NCBI GenBank assembly: GCA_945883675.1
Contig: CAMCYA010000010.1
Span: 1-34,158, forward strand
DNA: 34,158 nt
Source: Bifidobacterium breve
Lineage (GTDB): Bacteria > Actinomycetota > Actinomycetes > Nanopelagicales > Nanopelagicaceae
Direction: 5' to 3'
How positions within the stretch are numbered: the stretch's first letter is position 1; every line of letters starts with the position of its first letter. Of this stretch, positions 22,903 to 30,304 are shown one piece after another. A model generated the notes under the pieces. It was given only the letters and a program-made list of their open reading frames with translations, made no database searches and was not told the origin of the DNA. The position numbers and the translations under genes were made by a program.

Positions 22903-23299
22903 TTTTTACCACAGCTTTTTCAAGGCTAGGAGTTAGGTCTAAAAAGTTTGGAACTTTTGAAGGCTTCATGCCAAGTTCGGCCGCTTTTTGTGCAAGTGCT
23001 TCCGGAGAAGAGATCTCATCAATCGTTCTAGCAATTGCCTCTCGCTGATCGCTTACTAATTTAGCTTCAGCCTTTAACTCTGAGAGCTTAAATGCATCTT
23101 GTGCCAACAATGTATTGATAAAGAGTAGAAACACCAGGCCAATGACGCCCACTAGCGTGACGAAAACTGCAAAGTATCTGCGATCGGCCTGTTTGCCTTC
23201 AGTTGGCTCTGGCACAAGTTTGAGTGCAACTTCAGCGCTTTTCTCAGCCAAGATTTTTCTTGATCGAACGACAGCAGGTGCAAGTGAGGTAAGTGCCAT
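22895..23299 (-). CDS. ftsL: FtsL-like septum protein
   Basis: A 134-residue protein with a basic cytoplasmic region, a single membrane segment (about residues 43-64) and a following stretch likely to form a coiled coil (about 68-100). This layout, and the place between rsmH and ftsI, define FtsL even though sequence conservation in this family is low. FtsL forms a complex with FtsB and FtsQ that activates FtsWI. The ATG overlaps the rsmH stop by one base (TAATG). Confidence 0.82.
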   Translation of the reverse strand: MALTSLAPAVVRSRKILAEKSAEVALKLVPEPTEGKQADRRYFAVFVTLVGVIGLVFLLFINTLLAQDAFKLSELKAEAKLVSDQREAIARTIDEISSPEALAQKAAELGMKPSKVPNFLDLTPSLEKAVVKNG

Positions 23300-24252
23300 T
23301 ACGCGGCCACTCTCTCTATGGCGCGCAACCGTACCGACTGCGCCCGTGAGTTTTCTTCTACTTCATCTTCTGTTGGTCCTTGGCTACCACGAAATACCAG
23401 AGCAAACTTTGCAGCAAATTCTGGCAACTCAACAGGAAGTTCCCGAGGTGTACCAGAGGTGCTGGCCGATACAAAAATCTCCTTAACAATTCGATCTTCA
23501 AGGGATTGAAAGGACATCACGACAAGACGTGCTCCAACATTTAGAATTTCAAGTGCAACTGGAAGAGCGCGAGTTATGCTGCCGAGTTCATCATTTGTCT
23601 CAATGCGAAGTGCTTGAAAAGTTCGCTTGGCTGGATTGCCACCTGTACGACGAGTTGCCGCTGGAATTGCATCCTTTACCAACGCTGCCAGTTGGGCAGT
23701 TGAATTCATTGGTGCAATTCCTCTGGCTCTTACTATTGATTCAACAATTCGTGTAGCAAATTTTTCTTCACCATAAGTTCTTAAGATGCGTACTAATTGA
23801 CCTGGCTCATATGTATTGACTATCTCTGCTGCAGTCAAAGATTGTCTGCGATCCATTCGCATATCTAGCGGCGCATCTTGAGAGTATGAAAATCCTCGCT
23901 CTGATTGATCTAGCTGCATCGAGGAAGTACCAAGATCAAATAGAGCACCATCGATTTTCTTGAACCCAAAATCTTTTACAACTTCGCCAATTGCATCAAA
24001 GCTTTGGTGGGCAGTAAGCAGTCGATCACCAAATTGAGCAAGCCTGGATGTGGCTTTTGTGATTGCATCCATATCTCGGTCAATTGCAATTACAGTCAAC
24101 TGAGGAAATTTCTGGAGTAATGCCTCAGAGTGTCCGCCTAATCCTAAAGTTGCATCAACTACAACAGGATTTTTTGAAGAGGCAATTGCGGGAGACAGAA
24201 GTTCAATGCAGCGATCACGCATCACAGATATGTGTTCATTATCAATACTCAC
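23299..24252 (-). CDS. rsmH: 16S rRNA (cytosine-1402 N4) methyltransferase RsmH/MraW
   Basis: Methylates N4 of C1402 in the 16S rRNA decoding centre using S-adenosylmethionine. I place the start at GTG 24252 (317 residues) because a very strong purine-rich site, GGAAAGGGGGA, lies just upstream and the conserved N-terminal block follows at once (HISVMRDRCIELLSP). A frame starting at 24348 would run through the structured leader. Motifs include DATLGLGGHSE, DLGTSSMQLD, SERGFSY, KRTFQALRIETNDEL and SFQSLEDRIVK. It is the second gene of the cluster and is separated from mraZ by a 149-base region. Confidence 0.95.
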   Translation of the reverse strand: MSIDNEHISVMRDRCIELLSPAIASSKNPVVVDATLGLGGHSEALLQKFPQLTVIAIDRDMDAITKATSRLAQFGDRLLTAHQSFDAIGEVVKDFGFKKIDGALFDLGTSSMQLDQSERGFSYSQDAPLDMRMDRRQSLTAAEIVNTYEPGQLVRILRTYGEEKFATRIVESIVRARGIAPMNSTAQLAALVKDAIPAATRRTGGNPAKRTFQALRIETNDELGSITRALPVALEILNVGARLVVMSFQSLEDRIVKEIFVSASTSGTPRELPVELPEFAAKFALVFRGSQGPTEDEVEENSRAQSVRLRAIERVAA

Positions 24253-24309
24253 TTGTCCCCCTTTCCTAAGTAACTCCCGCTTTATTTCTTTACAACTGTT
24301 CTCATCTCT

Positions 24310-24390
24310 GGTCACTGCCGGCCGACGGATCTGAAGTTGTAACGGCACCGGGGAAGGGGTGTCGCTACTTTCGAAGGGTCGGCAGTGGCC
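24310..24390 (-). ncRNA. Structured leader RNA candidate between mraZ and rsmH (mraW-motif-like)
   Basis: A long inverted repeat brackets this stretch: CACTGCCG (24313-24320) against CGGCAGTG (24380-24387), extended on the outside by GG/CC and on the inside by GAC/GTC. An inner hairpin pairs CGGCACC (24343-24349) with GGTGTCG (24358-24364) around an 8-base loop. No T-run follows on either strand, so it does not look like a terminator. A conserved 'mraW' RNA motif upstream of mraW (rsmH) has been described in actinobacteria by comparative genomics; position and host group match, but I could not compare with its covariance model. Some non-Watson-Crick pairs are G-U only on the plus strand, so orientation is not proven. 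Confidence 0.5.
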
Positions 24391-24401
24391 ACAAATGAGA
24401 G

Positions 24402-24833
24402 TTAGAACAAACCTGGAAAGACCTCCTCTGATACTTCAGCGAAACTCTTTTCACGATCTGCTAAATATTCATTCCAAGAATTTGAATCCCAAATTTCAAC
24501 TCTTGTATTGGCACCAATAACTACGCAATCTTTTTCTAAGCCTGCATATGTTCGAAGTGCTTGAGGAATAGTCACTCGACCTTGGCGATCAGGAATTTCA
24601 TCGTGCGCACCAGCAAACATCACACGGCTGTAATCACGTGCTGACTTTGCAGTCACTGGTGCTTGTTTAAGGGTTTGGGTAATTTCAGAAAACTCTTGTG
24701 AAGGAAATACATAAAGACAACGTTCTTGCCCTTTTGTTATAACTAAACCTGCAGAAAGCTCTTCACGAAATTTCGCCGGAAGTATGAGACGACCTTTTTC
24801 ATCTAAACGCGGTTCGTGGGTGCCAAGAAACAT
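24402..24833 (-). CDS. mraZ: Transcriptional regulator MraZ
   Basis: DNA-binding regulator that heads the division and cell-wall cluster and is known in other bacteria to control its own operon. The 143-residue protein has two AbrB-like MraZ repeats, each with the family signature: [17 protein letters not shown] near the N terminus and [18 protein letters not shown] in the second half. The ribosome-binding site AGGTGG lies before the ATG at 24833. A strongly phased set of MraZ-type boxes lies upstream at 24901-24975. Confidence 0.96.
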
Positions 24834-24854
24834 CGCTGCCCACCTACTTCCCCT

Positions 24855-24884
24855 AGATAAAGCTCAACCGAAAACCAGGCTCAA
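24855..24884 (-). promoter_or_regulatory. Alternative mraZ promoter candidate
   Basis: On the minus strand TTGAGC (24879-24884) and TTATCT (24855-24860) are 18 bases apart. A second TTGAGC copy lies between them. The match is moderate, and the promoter at 24903-24930 is the better candidate. Confidence 0.3.
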
Positions 24885-24900
24885 CTGCCTGCGTAATTCC

Positions 24901-24975
24901 CCACTTTACTCCACTTTTCTCCTTTTTCAACCACCCTTCGCCACTATTTACCCATTTACCCCCACCTGCACCCCA
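24901..24975 (-). promoter_or_regulatory. Phased array of MraZ-type operator boxes upstream of mraZ
   Basis: Read on the plus strand, eight successive 10-base units begin with CC: at 24901 CCACT, 24911 CCACT, 24921 CCTTT (degenerate), 24931 CCACC, 24941 CCACT, 24951 CCCAT, 24961 CCCAC and 24971 CCCCA. On the coding strand of mraZ these read AGTGG, GGTGG, ATGGG, GTGGG and similar. MraZ of E. coli is known to bind TGGG-type repeats spaced by 5 bases, a 10-base period. The array therefore looks like an extended MraZ binding platform, longer than the three or four repeats described in model species. Confidence 0.72.
24903..24930 (-). promoter_or_regulatory. Candidate mraZ operon promoter within the MraZ-box array
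   Basis: On the minus strand TTGAAA (24925-24930) is followed after 16 bases by TAAAGT (24903-24908), a good -35/-10 pair. The -10 overlaps the box at 24901 and the box at 24911 lies in the spacer, so MraZ bound there would block RNA polymerase. The degenerate box at 24921 coincides with the -35 element, which may explain why it departs from the repeat. Confidence 0.5.
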
Positions 24976-24989
24976 CTGCAAATGGGCAT

Positions 24990-25013
24990 AAAAAAACCCT
25001 CCAAAAGGAGGGT
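24990..25013 (-). terminator. Intrinsic terminator of the dnaE2-dinB-DUF3040 operon
   Basis: On the minus strand ACCCTCC and GGAGGGT pair around a TTTT loop (24996-25013) and are followed by a run of T residues (24990-24995). It lies 48 bases after the DUF3040 stop and just ahead of the mraZ control region, insulating the two operons. Confidence 0.9.
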
Positions 25014-25060
25014 CTGTGATGAGTCAATTGTGGGCAGATCTTTGCCCTTACTGGCCAGCT

Positions 25061-25447
25061 TTACTGGTTATTGCGCTCGTCCCAGCGTTGGTCCCATCGC
25101 TTATCCATGCGATCTCGCAACTTTGATGAGTTTTTGGGACTCTTTGAGCTGTTGCGGCCCTTGGACAGTGACTTAACCTTGCCAGAAGCTGAAAAACTAG
25201 AAATCACAGTTATGACCCCGGTCAAAGCGATGAGAAATCCGACTATTCCAACAGGGGCGGTTTTGCTAATGACTCCTGCTAACACAGTTACCAATCCAAG
25301 TAGTAAAAGGGCTGCTCCCTTAATAATCCGATTTTTGGAGGGAGTTAGCGGTGATGCAGAGAGTGCCGATACTAGGCGTGGATCCTCCGTTAAAAGGGCA
25401 GCCTCCATCTCATCTAGGAGGCGCTTTTCACGATCAGATAGTGGCAC
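25061..25447 (-). CDS. DUF3040 family small membrane protein
   Basis: A 128-residue protein beginning PLSDREKRLLDEME, the N-terminal signature of the actinobacterial DUF3040 family, followed by two membrane segments (about residues 43-62 and 66-86) and a basic C-terminal tail rich in Ser, Lys, Arg and Asp. The function is unknown. DUF3040 genes often lie near mraZ or DNA polymerase genes in actinobacteria. The start is GTG at 25447, 32 bases after the dinB stop; there is no ribosome-binding site, but a -10-like TATTCT ends 6 bases before it, so a leaderless transcript is possible. Confidence 0.82.
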   Translation of the reverse strand: MPLSDREKRLLDEMEAALLTEDPRLVSALSASPLTPSKNRIIKGAALLLLGLVTVLAGVISKTAPVGIVGFLIALTGVITVISSFSASGKVKSLSKGRNSSKSPKNSSKLRDRMDKRWDQRWDERNNQ

Positions 25448-25479: not shown

Positions 25480-26673
25480 CTACTCCTCGTGTTCATCGTC
25501 GGGCTCGATTAACCGAGCAGGGCGTACCGAGCCTGGACCAAAGCGCTCACGGGCTTTATCTACAGCGCCTTCCGCCTCTCGCCACCCCTTTTCTCTCTCA
25601 CCAAGCATCAATTGCACAGGTGCGCCATCGGTTAAATTCTCCAAACTAACTCCCACCAACCGAAGACGCGCACGATCAATTCCAAGGGCCTCATAAATCG
25701 CCTTCACAACTTCGTATACCTCATGTGTTCCATCAATTGGTAGGGGTAAAGTTTTTGATCGATTAATTGTTGTGAAATCACCGAAACGAACTTTAATACT
25801 GATTGTTTTTGCAAATAATCCTTTATCTCGAAGCCTGGAAGTTGCGCGCTCGCACAGTTTTAAATACTCGCGCAAGATCTCTTCTGGATTATCTAGATCA
25901 GTTGGAAAAGTTTCTGCTGCACTAATACTTTTTTCGCCGTCATGTGGTGCTACATCTCGATAATCCCTTCCCCAAGAAAGCTCATGTAACGTTGCTCCAG
26001 ATGCTTCTCCGACAGCACGGATGAGAGTAGTTCGGGGCAACTTGGCAATATCTTCAATTGTCCTAAGTCCTAGGCGCTCCAGAATTTCAGCGGTTTTTGG
26101 TCCAACACCCCACATCGCCGAGATCGGAAGTGGGTGTAGAAAATCTAAAATCTCTTCCGGTGCAATCTCTAGCATTCCATTTGGTTTGCAATGTGTTGAT
26201 GCTAACTTTGCGATGAACTTAGATGGAGCGATTCCAACAGAACACGTTATGCCTTCTTGGCTTTCTACTTTTGCTCGAATTGCAGTTGCAATTTCACGTC
26301 CAGTTCCTAATAATCGCTTAGCGCCTGTAACATCTAAAAATGCTTCATCAACAGAAACTGGTTCAACATTTGGAGTAAAGCTTTCAAAGATCTCCATTAT
26401 GTTTACAGAAACTTCTTGATACCTAGCCATATCAACCGGCAAAAAAACTGCATGTGGGGCTAATCGCCGTGCTTGACTCACGGGCATTGCTGAATGGATT
26501 CCAAACTTACGCGCCTCATAATTTGCGGCCGAGACCACTCCCCGTGTTCCCATCCCAATCACTACTGCTTTGCCTTTTAACTCAGGATTATCGCGCTCTG
26601 CTACTGATGCAAAGAATGCATCCATATCTACATGAAGAATTGTGGCCTGTATTGGCCCATCAACTGCACTCAT
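25480..26673 (-). CDS. dinB: Y-family DNA polymerase IV (DinB)
   Basis: Translesion DNA polymerase. I place the start at ATG 26673 (397 residues), overlapping the dnaE2 stop in ATGA; the frame extends upstream to 26730, but those residues lie inside dnaE2. The catalytic acidic residues are intact: HVDMDAFFAS with Asp16, and SVDEAF with Asp109 and Glu110. A helix-hairpin-helix region (MWGVGPKTAEILERLGL) and the little-finger domain follow. QLMLG near the C terminus could be a sliding-clamp-binding motif. Pairing with dnaE2 under a LexA box suggests a joint mutagenic-repair role. Mycobacterial ImuB, which takes this place in the mutasome, lacks these catalytic residues; this protein does not. 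Confidence 0.93.
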   Translation of the reverse strand: MSAVDGPIQATILHVDMDAFFASVAERDNPELKGKAVVIGMGTRGVVSAANYEARKFGIHSAMPVSQARRLAPHAVFLPVDMARYQEVSVNIMEIFESFTPNVEPVSVDEAFLDVTGAKRLLGTGREIATAIRAKVESQEGITCSVGIAPSKFIAKLASTHCKPNGMLEIAPEEILDFLHPLPISAMWGVGPKTAEILERLGLRTIEDIAKLPRTTLIRAVGEASGATLHELSWGRDYRDVAPHDGEKSISAAETFPTDLDNPEEILREYLKLCERATSRLRDKGLFAKTISIKVRFGDFTTINRSKTLPLPIDGTHEVYEVVKAIYEALGIDRARLRLVGVSLENLTDGAPVQLMLGEREKGWREAEGAVDKARERFGPGSVRPARLIEPDDEHEE

Positions 26674-29600
26674 ATTACGAGCGTACTTTGTTTGGTGCTC
26701 CAACTTTCGTAGGCGACGCGAAGATCCCATACGCCAGTAGCTCTTATAGATATGCCTCTGGCTCCAGTTCGGCGAGTTACTCCCCTTACTAGCAATAAAG
26801 ACGTTGAATACAAAACATTGGCGTACTCTCCCTGAACATCAGTAAAGAAAGTTGAATCACTGCATCCATAACCATCATCTAGGGTTAAAAAAATAACTCT
26901 CTTGCCAGATCGAACCGGTGGTGTCTGCATTGCCACTTTAATACCTGCCACTAAGACCGATGACTGAGAACGCTGCTTGAGTAGATCGCTAGAACGAACG
27001 GCACCAATTGAATTAAGAAATTCTCCATAGAACTCAATCAAATGCCGTGACATATCTATCCCTAGGCGATCAACTTCATACTTAACGCTTTCGGCTGAAG
27101 ACATATCGGGTAGACCACTGCTAGTAAGTTCAGGGGGCGCAAAGTTTAAATTCATCTGCGCACCTGAAACCGTTGCTGCTGGTGATTTTTGTAGATCTGA
27201 AAAATGCAGCAACAAGTCCCGGCGATTAACATCAGGATGTAGGCGGTCAAATGCTCCCGTAAGGATCATGCTTTCAATAACTGGTGCGCTAGCTCCTGAG
27301 CGGTGCACGAAATCAGCTAAATCAATATATGGCCGAGCGGCAATAATCGATGTAACTTCGCTATCGCTAATTCGAGCAATAGTTGAGAGCGCAATACGAA
27401 TTGCATTTCCATGATCTTCAACGCGATAAACCGCATCTGATGCATTTGCATCAAGGGGTGCGATAGTAAGTCCCATCTGTCGCGCCTCATCAACGATTAA
27501 ACGTTTGGGATACATTCCTGGATCGTGAGTTAATACTCCGGCAAGAAATGCTGCTGGGTAATGCCTTTTAAGCCAGGCTGATTGATAGGTAGGCAAAGCA
27601 AAAGCTGCAGCGTGTGCTTTACAGAAACCAAAGGATGCAAAAGCTCGCAGCACATCCCAAATTTTATGAATGATCACAAGCTCATATCCCTTGGCTGTTG
27701 CTGCAGGGAAAAACCAATCACATACTTCTTGTTGGCCATCTCTATCGCCTAGGGATCTACGTTTTTCATCGGCCGTTGCTAGCGATGCTCCAGTCATTGT
27801 GGCAATGATCTGAATAACTTGTTCATGAAAGACAACAACACCTTCGGTACTAGCCAAAATCTCATACAGGTCAGGGTGGATGATCTGTGCAGGCGCCCAT
27901 CCATGGCGGGCCTTAAGAAATGGCGTGATCATGTCACTTTTAACTGGGCCGGGCCTAAATAAAGAGATATCAATAATCAAATCGGTGAAATTTGATGGTG
28001 CAAGCTTCCCAACTAGTTCGCGCTGGCCAGGACTTTCCACCTGGAAAATCCCTAACGTGCGAGTTGATTGAATAAGTTCATACGTTGCCAGATCATCAAG
28101 TGGCACTAAATCAATATCAATTTTTTCTTTATGAACCCGTTCTATCTCTTTAACTGAATAAGCAATTGTTGACTGCATTCTGACTCCTAATACATCGAGT
28201 TTGAGTAAGCCAACTGCTTCAACGCCATCTTTATCAAAGGCAACCATGGGATATCCACCAGCGCTAGCCATTAGTGGTGCGCGATCTAAAAACCCACCAT
28301 CAGATAAAACGATCGCACAGGGATGCATCGCCAAATGTCGCGGTAGACCATCGAGGCGTTGTGCTATCTCAATAGTTGCGGCCATAAGAGGTGAAGAGAT
28401 GTTGAGTCTTCGAAGTTCAGGTAAGGACTCGATAGTTTTAGAGATGTTACGAGCCCTGATATGCGGCATAGATTTTGCAAGCATGTCGATCTCCATGCCA
28501 GGTAGGCCTAAAGCTGCACCTGCATCACGAATGGCATGTCGGGCGCGATAGGTATCAACCATTGCGACAACGGCGCATCGAGATTGATTATTTGCTACAT
28601 CCCAGTTGTTATCACCGTAGCGTTTAAAAATCATGTCATAGATCTCAAGACGTCTATCGGACTCAACATCGATATCAATATCTGGCAACGCTTTGCGCAG
28701 TGGTGAGCAAAAACGCTCCATGAGTAAGCCGTGCTGCATGGGATCCACATTTGATATCCCAAGTAGATGACAGATCAATGAACCTGCACCACTGCCTCGA
28801 GCAGCAACTCGAATACCGGCATCGTTTGCCATTGCTGCAATATCTGCAACAGTTAAAAAATATGATTCGTAGCCAAGGGTTGCAACTACTGCTAACTCAT
28901 CATCTAAACGGGCCCGTGCTTTTTTAATCGCATCGTTTTTGCTGTATCTACGATTGATTCCAGATTCACTACGAGTGCGCAGTAGGGCGCGCATCTCTTG
29001 TGCATTTGCAGCGCCCACCACATGAGGCTCAGGTAAATGCGCTCCCCCTAAACCAATATCTCTCTGAGGCGATAGGAGGGCACGTTCGGCCCATTGGCGA
29101 GTTGTTTTAAGTAACGCCCGCGGAGTTGACTCACCCGCAGCACGTGCAATTTCGCTAGCTAGATAGATCATTTCATCACTAGATTTCAAAAATCCTTCAG
29201 CATTGCGACGTTCAAGATGACGCTCATGTAAGGGTACTAATTGGCGCGTGCAATCTAAGACATCAGCTATCGGACCATCTCTTCTATCTAGCATCCGCAC
29301 TGCATTAGTAACGACTGCATCAATATCATTATCGCGAGCAAAAACTAGGGATCTAGCAGCGTGCTCAGTAGATCGGGGGCCCTTACCGGCGATTAAATGT
29401 GAAACACATTCGACTGCATTGCTGGCAAATAAATCTCGGGTTTGATTAAAAATAGAGAGAGCTTGATCAAAGCGATGTGCCTGTATTGCATTACTCATTG
29501 GGGATTCTGGTCCATGTAATGCATAGAGATTGGTGCTGTAATTACTAAAACGCTGTAAAAAATCTAGAGTTAGAACTGGCTTACGAGTATCACTTGTCAT

Positions 29601-29897
29601 CGCTAGAGATGTCATCAATCTGCACAGCGAGCGCCATCCGCCATCGCCGTGGGCAAGTAATGTAATCCGCCCCTTAACCCCGCCTAACTCGATTGCAGAG
29701 TTGACTCCAATAATCGGTGCAACGCCATACTCAACACAACTTTGAGCAAATTCAATGGCACCTGCTAAACCATCGCGGTCATTTAACGCTAGTGCAGGCA
29801 TTTCAAACTGTGCGGCTCGCTCTACTAAATCACTGGGTCGAGTTGTTCCATACTTTAATGAGTAGGCACTAGCAACATTAAGGTGAATAAAACTCAT
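26670..29897 (-). CDS. dnaE2: Error-prone DNA polymerase DnaE2 (ImuC-like)
   Basis: C-family DNA polymerase of the damage-inducible type, 1075 residues. The polymerase core is intact: ARGSGAGS, PDIDIDV with catalytic Asp406 and Asp408, and LLKLDVLG. A C-terminal OB-fold region follows (VLVAGIKVAMQTPP onward). The N-terminal PHP domain has lost its metal ligands: HLNVAS replaces HLHVHT, KYG replaces LDG, NDRD replaces TDHG, GVNS replaces GIEA and TNAVRM replaces NDLHY. Proofreading by this domain is therefore unlikely. It overlaps the DUF6504 gene by 4 bases upstream and dinB by 4 downstream. A LexA box lies before the operon. Confidence 0.95.
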   Translation of the reverse strand: MSFIHLNVASAYSLKYGTTRPSDLVERAAQFEMPALALNDRDGLAGAIEFAQSCVEYGVAPIIGVNSAIELGGVKGRITLLAHGDGGWRSLCRLMTSLAMTSDTRKPVLTLDFLQRFSNYSTNLYALHGPESPMSNAIQAHRFDQALSIFNQTRDLFASNAVECVSHLIAGKGPRSTEHAARSLVFARDNDIDAVVTNAVRMLDRRDGPIADVLDCTRQLVPLHERHLERRNAEGFLKSSDEMIYLASEIARAAGESTPRALLKTTRQWAERALLSPQRDIGLGGAHLPEPHVVGAANAQEMRALLRTRSESGINRRYSKNDAIKKARARLDDELAVVATLGYESYFLTVADIAAMANDAGIRVAARGSGAGSLICHLLGISNVDPMQHGLLMERFCSPLRKALPDIDIDVESDRRLEIYDMIFKRYGDNNWDVANNQSRCAVVAMVDTYRARHAIRDAGAALGLPGMEIDMLAKSMPHIRARNISKTIESLPELRRLNISSPLMAATIEIAQRLDGLPRHLAMHPCAIVLSDGGFLDRAPLMASAGGYPMVAFDKDGVEAVGLLKLDVLGVRMQSTIAYSVKEIERVHKEKIDIDLVPLDDLATYELIQSTRTLGIFQVESPGQRELVGKLAPSNFTDLIIDISLFRPGPVKSDMITPFLKARHGWAPAQIIHPDLYEILASTEGVVVFHEQVIQIIATMTGASLATADEKRRSLGDRDGQQEVCDWFFPAATAKGYELVIIHKIWDVLRAFASFGFCKAHAAAFALPTYQSAWLKRHYPAAFLAGVLTHDPGMYPKRLIVDEARQMGLTIAPLDANASDAVYRVEDHGNAIRIALSTIARISDSEVTSIIAARPYIDLADFVHRSGASAPVIESMILTGAFDRLHPDVNRRDLLLHFSDLQKSPAATVSGAQMNLNFAPPELTSSGLPDMSSAESVKYEVDRLGIDMSRHLIEFYGEFLNSIGAVRSSDLLKQRSQSSVLVAGIKVAMQTPPVRSGKRVIFLTLDDGYGCSDSTFFTDVQGEYANVLYSTSLLLVRGVTRRTGARGISIRATGVWDLRVAYESWSTKQSTLVI

Positions 29898-30175
29898 ACG
29901 CTACGAATAATCCACTGACCCGTTAACTCATCACGTTCGAGTTCAAAGGTCGTTAAGGAGCCAATCGGTGCAGCCTCTACTCGCCACAGTGCGCGGGCTT
30001 GATCATCAGGGCGGTATTTGCCATCGCTAATGCGATTCCACCATCCGCCGGCTTCACACCATCTAGAAAGAACTGCATGTATACGAAAGCGCTTGCCCCT
30101 AAAGGTAAATTCAATGGGAGTTGTTGCCCCATCTATAGTTACATCGGCCGAAGGATTAATCTGTGGAGCTGACAT
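29894..30175 (-). CDS. DUF6504-like small protein leading the dnaE2-dinB operon
   Basis: A 93-residue soluble protein with an N-terminal beta-rich part (FTFRGKRFRIHAVL), a Trp-rich middle (RWCEAGGWWNRISDG), then ALWRVEA and a C-terminal ELTGQWII strand. I recognise it as the DUF6504 type that accompanies dnaE and a Y-family polymerase gene in actinobacteria such as Streptomyces; this is recollection of gene neighbourhood, not a search. Its function is unknown. It is too small to be the RecA-like ImuA'. Being first in the LexA-controlled operon and translationally coupled (ATGA) to dnaE2, it may be an accessory or regulator of the polymerase. AAAGG lies about 12 bases before the ATG, a weak ribosome-binding site. 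Confidence 0.72.
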   Translation of the reverse strand: MSAPQINPSADVTIDGATTPIEFTFRGKRFRIHAVLSRWCEAGGWWNRISDGKYRPDDQARALWRVEAAPIGSLTTFELERDELTGQWIIRSV

Positions 30176-30192
30176 TTTCTACGGGTACCTTT

Positions 30193-30202
30193 CACAGCTG
30201 TG
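30193..30202. repeat. Perfect 10-base palindrome between the SOS box and the DUF6504 start
   Basis: CACAGCTGTG is a perfect inverted repeat located 18 bases before the DUF6504 start codon, within the expected leader. It could be an operator or a small hairpin. With only 10 bases, chance is possible. Confidence 0.3.
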
Positions 30203-30215
30203 GGTAATCGGGTGA

Positions 30216-30221
30216 GTATTA
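30216..30221 (-). promoter_or_regulatory. Candidate -10 element of the SOS operon
   Basis: TAATAC on the minus strand lies 8 bases downstream of the LexA box, placing the box across the expected -35 region. LexA bound there would exclude RNA polymerase. The -35 itself is poorly conserved. Confidence 0.5.
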
Positions 30222-30229
30222 GGGGAAAT

Positions 30230-30245
30230 TCGAACAGATGTTCGA
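30230..30245. promoter_or_regulatory. LexA-binding SOS box (mycobacterial type)
   Basis: TCGAAC, four bases AGAT, then GTTCGA: a perfect match to the actinobacterial LexA consensus TCGAAC-N4-GTTCGA. It lies 55 bases upstream of the DUF6504 start and controls, by position, the DUF6504-dnaE2-dinB operon on the minus strand. The plus-strand DoxX-like gene starts 107 bases away with its own promoter and is less likely to be controlled by it. Confidence 0.93.
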
Positions 30246-30304
30246 AAAATAGTCCTTTCCACTGACAAATAGCAAGCCCCTGGGGTGTCAGATGCAATAA
30301 ATAG

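Follow-up and report, generated by a model that had tools for sequence, protein, structure and literature searches.

We examined a 34,158-nucleotide stretch of DNA (the window), contig CAMCYA010000010.1 of assembly GCA_945883675.1, which is catalogued as Bifidobacterium breve and placed by the Genome Taxonomy Database in the Nanopelagicaceae; the assembly (G000, in which this contig is C10) amounts to 1.19 Mb and is 84.5% complete. The window holds three minus-strand genes, for a small DUF6504 protein, a DnaE-type polymerase and the Y-family polymerase DinB, behind a LexA box. An earlier reading of the sequence alone had claimed a perfect box ahead of three genes with 4-base ATGA joins, and this was confirmed: the box matches the pattern CGAACN4GTTCG with 0 mismatches, and both overlaps were located. 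The features, in transcription order, are:

30270..30275, minus strand, putative -35 element TTGCTA, 18-base spacer (consensus reading only)
30246..30251, minus strand, putative -10 element TATTTT, abutting the LexA box (consensus reading only)
30230..30245, no strand assigned, LexA box TCGAACAGATGTTCGA, a palindrome (exact match)
29894..30175, minus strand, DUF6504 protein, candidate standalone ImuB-C relative, 93 amino acids (PF20114, expect value (E) 6.7e-10)
29894-29897, ATGA overlap of the DUF6504 gene and dnaE2
26670..29897, minus strand, DnaE2 (DnaE2B type), error-prone Pol III alpha homologue, 1075 amino acids (tree and residues)
26670-26673, ATGA overlap of dnaE2 and dinB
25480..26673, minus strand, DinB (Pol IV, Y family), 397 amino acids (family model and residues)

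A longer ATG frame for dinB starts at 26730 and overlaps dnaE2. A similar arrangement of box, -10 and -35 was seen in the 7 relatives compared, these promoter elements being consensus readings that imply no start site. Scanning the window at up to 2 mismatches gave one further LexA match, itself with 2 mismatches (shuffled sequences gave a mean of 1.19 matches).

The three proteins

Family labels cannot decide the class of the window DnaE. It passes no curated cut-off for error-prone DnaE (PRK05672, 627 bits against 939), scores higher with the Pol III alpha model PRK05673 (663 against a cut-off of 1002), and passes only the superfamily model TIGR00594. The class therefore rests on a tree of 34 proteins, comprising the window protein, 13 DnaE2 of DUF6504 genomes, 4 DnaE2 of Streptomyces type or similar, 10 ImuB-linked DnaE2 and 6 DnaE1. 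The window protein clusters with all 13 DnaE2 of DUF6504 genomes (91/87, below the starred support level), and together they join the four Streptomyces-type or similar sequences at 100/100. The ten DnaE2 of ImuB genomes or ImuA-ImuB cassettes are separate (100/100), as are the six DnaE1 (100/100); because the tree program flags long branches that join at the base, no branching order is claimed for the three big groups. By the tree, the window protein is a DnaE2 of the B group rather than of the A group linked to ImuA/ImuB, the letter "B" being used by analogy with the Streptomyces group of PMC12926913. Its polymerase aspartates are intact (PDIDID, KLDVLG), and its PHP site reads HLN, NDRD and TNAVRM, against HLH, TDHG and TNDLHY in the DnaE1 of the same window. 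Because the aspartates are kept and the PHP positions substituted, DnaE2 is probably active and without PHP proofreading.

For the DUF6504 protein, Pfam's own model PF20114 matches the extreme C-terminus of all five alphaproteobacterial ImuB examined (E 2.1e-6 to 0.032, one of them over the curated cut-off), and of 14 control genomes the single one over the cut-off is Caulobacter. In hhalign, a profile of 72 standalone DUF6504 sequences matched alphaproteobacterial ImuB tails with 81% probability and E 1.3e-5, significance being reached only with this deeper DUF6504 set and with alphaproteobacterial ImuB alone. A plain hidden Markov model search was weak, a decoy open reading frame at 11.6 bits equalling the second-best ImuB score, and the Pfam model is the better evidence for kinship with ImuB-C. 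DUF6504 would accordingly be described as a standalone ImuB-C relative, a case that is good for the alphaproteobacterial form and unproven for that of actinobacterial ImuB. With the label DUF6504 now linked to ImuB-C, standalone copies become searchable by a public model.

The AlphaFold2 model of DUF6504 is of moderate confidence (mean predicted local distance difference test 75.8, predicted template modelling score 0.62) and consists mostly of strands with one helix, which would fit the reported beta character of ImuB-C. Sequence searches of solved structures gave nothing clear for DUF6504, whose one match had E 0.3; with an actinobacterial ImuB as query they retrieved Pol IV and Rev1 only. 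Foldseek found no match to the model at E <= 0.001. The top matches in a second structure comparison were engineered scaffolds (Z 6.9 and below, 70 residues, root mean square deviation 3.1), which we take to be cystatin-like (adhirons, affimers); the resemblance may be only a common arrangement.

DinB passes NCBIfam PRK03858, and its catalytic motifs VDMDAFF and SVDEAFLDVTG are intact; among complete DinB of related loci, DEA is present in 68/68 and the D-x-D pattern in 66/68. These residues point to a catalytically intact Y-family polymerase (PolY), in agreement with the earlier description of an apparently active Pol IV. The claim of an SOS-type operon with two polymerases is likewise supported, the catalytic residues of both appearing intact. 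The clamp motif of E. coli Pol IV is QLVLGL; the tail of the window DinB has QLMLG, followed by AVDKARERFGPGSV, which resembles ALAQIERQFGKGSV of the organism's own RecA. Within it RFGPGSV resembles QFGKGSV of RecA, and the strict pattern occurs in 57 of 68 tails. Profiles of 58 DinB tails and five RecA N-termini of the lineage match at E 6.2e-4, over 15 columns only and with 28% probability. The RecA-NT motif and its meaning are treated in PMC6511836.

Conservation and the search for ImuA' and ImuB

The cassette is genuine: it is conserved, and it carries an SOS operator. Its closest relatives among the named contigs, taken from the best 80 of 571 confirmed loci, are lake actinobacterial bins, including Candidatus Planktophila and Nanopelagicaceae, and the two isolate-type chromosomes LanE43 (L116, 88% identity) and IMCC26103 (L125). 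We surveyed 37 genomes of the genus, including the present one, and found DUF6504 in 30, this DnaE2 in 28 and a single Y-family gene in 30. Of these genomes 26 hold the full set of three genes, which are adjacent in 24; in the other two, dnaE2 and dinB lie on different contigs. A survey of named contigs covered the best 80 of 571 confirmed loci; it overlaps with the genus survey (L048 and L167, for example, are one contig, judged by length and content), and the counts are not independent. DUF6504 lies within 2.5 kb upstream at 72 of the 76 loci with visible upstream DNA (not at L154, L163, L173 and L174), a CGAACN4GTTCG box within 1.5 kb at 73/76 (not at L143, L165 and L167), and, of the 74 loci whose downstream DNA is visible, 66 have a Y-family gene within 1.5 kb on that side (not L147, L149, L154, L162, L168, L172, L175 and L176). 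The conserved neighbourhood that the sequence-only reading called for is thus present, and many Actinomycetes, across families, have the same succession of box, DUF6504, dnaE2 and dinB. The three genes are under purifying selection: the ratio of nonsynonymous to synonymous substitution (dN/dS), computed against four relatives, lies at about 0.03-0.09 in nine of the 12 gene pairs and is undefined in three, with dS at 1.2-2.3, near saturation.

Some loci depart from this layout. A HEPN_SAV_6107 gene stands between DUF6504 and dnaE2 in L040, L042 and L166; a frame of L047, the one further gap-bearing locus scanned, did not match this family. In L163, L173 and L174, where DUF6504 was not found, a HEPN_SAV_6107 gene comes directly after the LexA box. 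The HEPN protein may replace DUF6504 or have another role in the SOS operon. Three relatives from the lineage (L147, L149, L154) have the operon without an adjacent dinB, and L154, with its box 64 bases before dnaE2, also lacks DUF6504; the pattern looks like stepwise loss. In L048 (1001-4480) the dnaE2 of a 1.4 Mb, 93% complete genome (G040) is cut into two open reading frames by a TAA, through decay or assembly error.

An ImuA' model built from four actinobacterial ImuA' found all seven ImuB genomes given to it, four of which had supplied the model and three of which were independent (G039, G043, G055). It found none in 10 genomes of this lineage, which agrees with the claim that the RecA-like ImuA' is absent, and it gave one weak partial match (G047, E 2.8e-4) among five other DUF6504-linked genomes. 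No ImuB was found in the present, incomplete genome or in G014, G015, G060 and G061, each of which has one Y-family gene. Complete imuA'/imuB genes elsewhere in the genome, which would have contradicted the earlier claim, were thus not found at its 84.5% completeness. The description of the cassette as being without ImuB stands for the protein as a whole and needs qualifying for its C-terminal domain, since DUF6504 appears to be a relative of that domain in alphaproteobacterial ImuB.

The class-level comparison took in 19 genomes with a DnaE2-type match, a term that here denotes a reading of PF07733 scores with short fragments left out (e.g. G013, G017, G023, G044, G050, G054, G059). A weak ImuB-like Y-family match was present in 0/9 DUF6504-linked genomes and 8/10 others, the remaining two having none (G038) or an inactive-looking PolY (G054). 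Fisher's test gives p 0.0007, ignoring relatedness and counting as linked both G041, where the contig breaks, and G056, where 9.6 kb separate DUF6504 from dnaE2. A strict either-or is contradicted by G043: its DUF6504 gene (L041, G043:C672) stands behind an exact LexA box of its own, away from dnaE2, while a different contig of the genome carries ImuA'-ImuB-DnaE2.

Relation to known mutasomes

ImuB-C and its standalone form were defined by Aravind et al. 2013 (PMC3765255), ImuA-less variants with standalone ImuB-C and/or DnaE2 were described in a 2019 Nucleic Acids Research paper (PMC6511836), and a 2026 survey in the same journal (PMC12926913) predicts a combination of DnaE2B, standalone ImuB-C, active PolY and RecA, in Actinobacteria only. 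By composition, the operon is a further example of this computer-predicted mutasome type. It had been put forward as the best candidate for an undescribed system in the window, a suggestion that falls because the composition is that of the survey's putative DnaE2-[ImuB-C]-PolY-RecA complex. The likeness to this fourth DnaE2B group (Tessaracoccus lapidicaptus; PMC12926913) covers a DnaE2 outside the ImuA/ImuB type, a standalone ImuB-C relative, an apparently active PolY whose tail may carry a RecA-NT-like motif, ImuA and ImuB not being found, and occurrence in Actinobacteria. The DnaE2 species of the survey typically have fairly large genomes, whereas the cassette is kept here in Nanopelagicaceae with genomes of about 1.2-1.5 Mb. 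The main text of PMC12926913, apart from its supplements, contains neither "Planktophila" nor "Nanopelagic", and neither the cassette in Nanopelagicales nor the name DUF6504 was found in the literature searched, which excluded most subscription papers and the survey's supplements.

Other known systems are further away. The DnaE2B-[ImuB-C] type (Arthrobacter alpinus; PMC12926913) shares ImuB-C and DnaE2B and has no PolY linked to them; L147, L149 and G052 look like it. The DnaE2B-iPolY-RecA type (Streptomyces dnaE2 with scDinB2) has a DnaE2 that forms the sister group in our tree; it differs from the window in that S. coelicolor DinB2 is called inactive (PMC6511836, PMC12926913) and ImuB-C is absent. 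ImuA'-ImuB-DnaE2 of mycobacteria and Caulobacter shares SOS control, DnaE2 and an ImuB-C-type domain, but here neither ImuA/ImuA' nor a dead ImuB with fused C-terminal domain was found, the Y-family catalytic residues are intact and the DnaE2 lies in another clade. The operon offers a small, clean setting for the predicted mutasome: three genes behind a single operator, one of them for the only Y-family polymerase, in a genome where ImuA/ImuB were not found.

We think it likely that LexA represses this operon, that it serves translesion synthesis and that its three products assemble with RecA into a DnaE2B-[ImuB-C]-PolY-RecA mutasome. The operator at its promoter would place the operon under LexA; in S. 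venezuelae, LexA targets include dnaE2 and dinP, whose listed RNA-seq changes are 30.62 and 13.74 (PMC9380542), so that LexA control of a related cassette has been measured elsewhere. For induction, protein contacts, division of labour and mutagenesis we infer the following course. DNA damage would give rise to RecA filaments, on which LexA would be cleaved and leave the operator abutting the -10, and one transcript would yield all three proteins by coupled translation. The DinB tail would dock on the beta clamp and RecA, and DUF6504 would join DnaE2 through the PHP domain, as modelled for ImuB-C in PMC12926913. DnaE2, lacking PHP proofreading, and DinB would then copy past lesions, in one complex or one after the other, with mutations as the cost.

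Several observations weigh against this mutasome. At the cut-offs used, PF20114 matched none of six actinobacterial ImuB and not the one Pseudomonas ImuB, and in hhalign the DUF6504 profile was not significant against actinobacterial ImuB tails (1.3% probability) or a mixed ImuB-C set (3.7%). The match between DinB tails and RecA is short, and the genome searched for imuA'/imuB is 84.5% complete. Operon linkage is also not universal: since 8/74 loci are without an adjacent Y-family gene, DinB may act alone. This last point leads to the reading in which the genes are co-regulated separate tools, DUF6504 working with DnaE2 only, as in the published DnaE2-[ImuB-C] type, and DinB being an ordinary Pol IV-RecA polymerase that shares the operon. 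DUF6504-dnaE2 pairs without adjacent dinB (G052, L147, L149 and others; among the eight, L154 is also without DUF6504) would fit it, as would the DnaE2B group that PMC12926913 lists as linked only to ImuB-C, e.g. in Arthrobacter alpinus. Against it stand the adjacency in 24/26 genus genomes with all three genes, the two exceptions having dnaE2 and dinB on different contigs, and a gene order kept across families; we regard it as possible, though rather doubtful.

It is improbable that DUF6504 is a DNA-damage sensor or DNA-binding regulator instead of a subunit. Such a role was proposed for ImuB-C by Aravind et al. 2013, PMC3765255 citing conserved Trp and basic residues for DNA binding, and the DUF6504 set has invariant Trp residues; the survey's own claim, however, models ImuB-C on the DnaE2 PHP domain (PMC12926913), and among the best 80 of 571 loci DUF6504 accompanies dnaE2 at 72/76. 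That the window DnaE is an ordinary DnaE1 duplicate, in a plain DNA repair operon without mutasome role, would fit the higher PRK05673 score but is hardly credible given its tree position, a PHP site substituted where the same window's DnaE1 is conserved, the LexA operator and the partner genes.

LexA sites in streamlined genomes and neighbouring genes

We searched the genomes for LexA sites at 0-1 mismatch only, so the regulon may be larger. Matches with 1 mismatch are about as frequent as those of a reversed-pattern control (2 to 7 per genome), and for this reason only sites outside genes were used. The present genome has four sites, all at this operon, lexA/LysM (two) or recA; the boxes at the operon and at one of the two lexA/LysM sites are exact, and that at recA has 1 mismatch. 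The identities of lexA and the LysM gene were confirmed by Pfam, and that of recA was confirmed as well. Four single-contig relatives, G014, G015, G060 (LanE43) and G061 (IMCC26103), have exact boxes only at the operon and the LysM gene, with 1-mismatch sites at recA and further ones at lexA/LysM. Beyond these, G014 has three 1-mismatch sites, G015 has two, and G060 and G061 have one apiece, all of them within other open reading frames or right where such a frame starts.

The small LysM-domain gene (L005, L065, L066, L183, L184) has LexA boxes in all five genomes examined; it adjoins lexA in four, G014 being the exception. Its position is like that of the SOS cell-division suppressors DivS/ChiZ.

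With exact boxes only at the operon and lexA/LysM, and 1-mismatch sites at recA, the detectable SOS regulon of these five Nanopelagicaceae genomes may contain no other DNA-synthesis function than the cassette. Tentatively, and with more doubt than confidence, we suggest that the SOS regulon of streamlined Nanopelagicaceae has been reduced to lexA and the LysM gene, recA and the cassette; the sole DNA-synthesis response still inducible would then be damage-induced mutagenesis by a RecA-run mutasome in which a detached ImuB-type tail bridges two live polymerases. Such a reduced regulon, if real, would mean that streamlined plankton lost other LexA targets but not inducible mutagenesis, with a bearing on the question of why error-prone polymerases persist. 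What deserves attention is that very small freshwater genomes keep this cassette, which makes up most of their detectable SOS effectors.

In the window the operon directly precedes mraZ and division/cell-wall genes (23299-25447), with a SCO2097-family gene beside it. SCO2097 matches occur at 67/80 and MraZ at 50/80 of the best 80 of 571 loci, which suggests an old, vertically kept place. Two Streptomyces plasmids (L061, L062) carry DnaE2B-type genes, one behind a Ku gene, the other followed by a short Y-family gene without catalytic motifs. Metagenome bins with this DnaE2 group are titled "Bifidobacterium breve" at L097, L105, L134, L135, L152, L163 and L167, and these labels are probably wrong.

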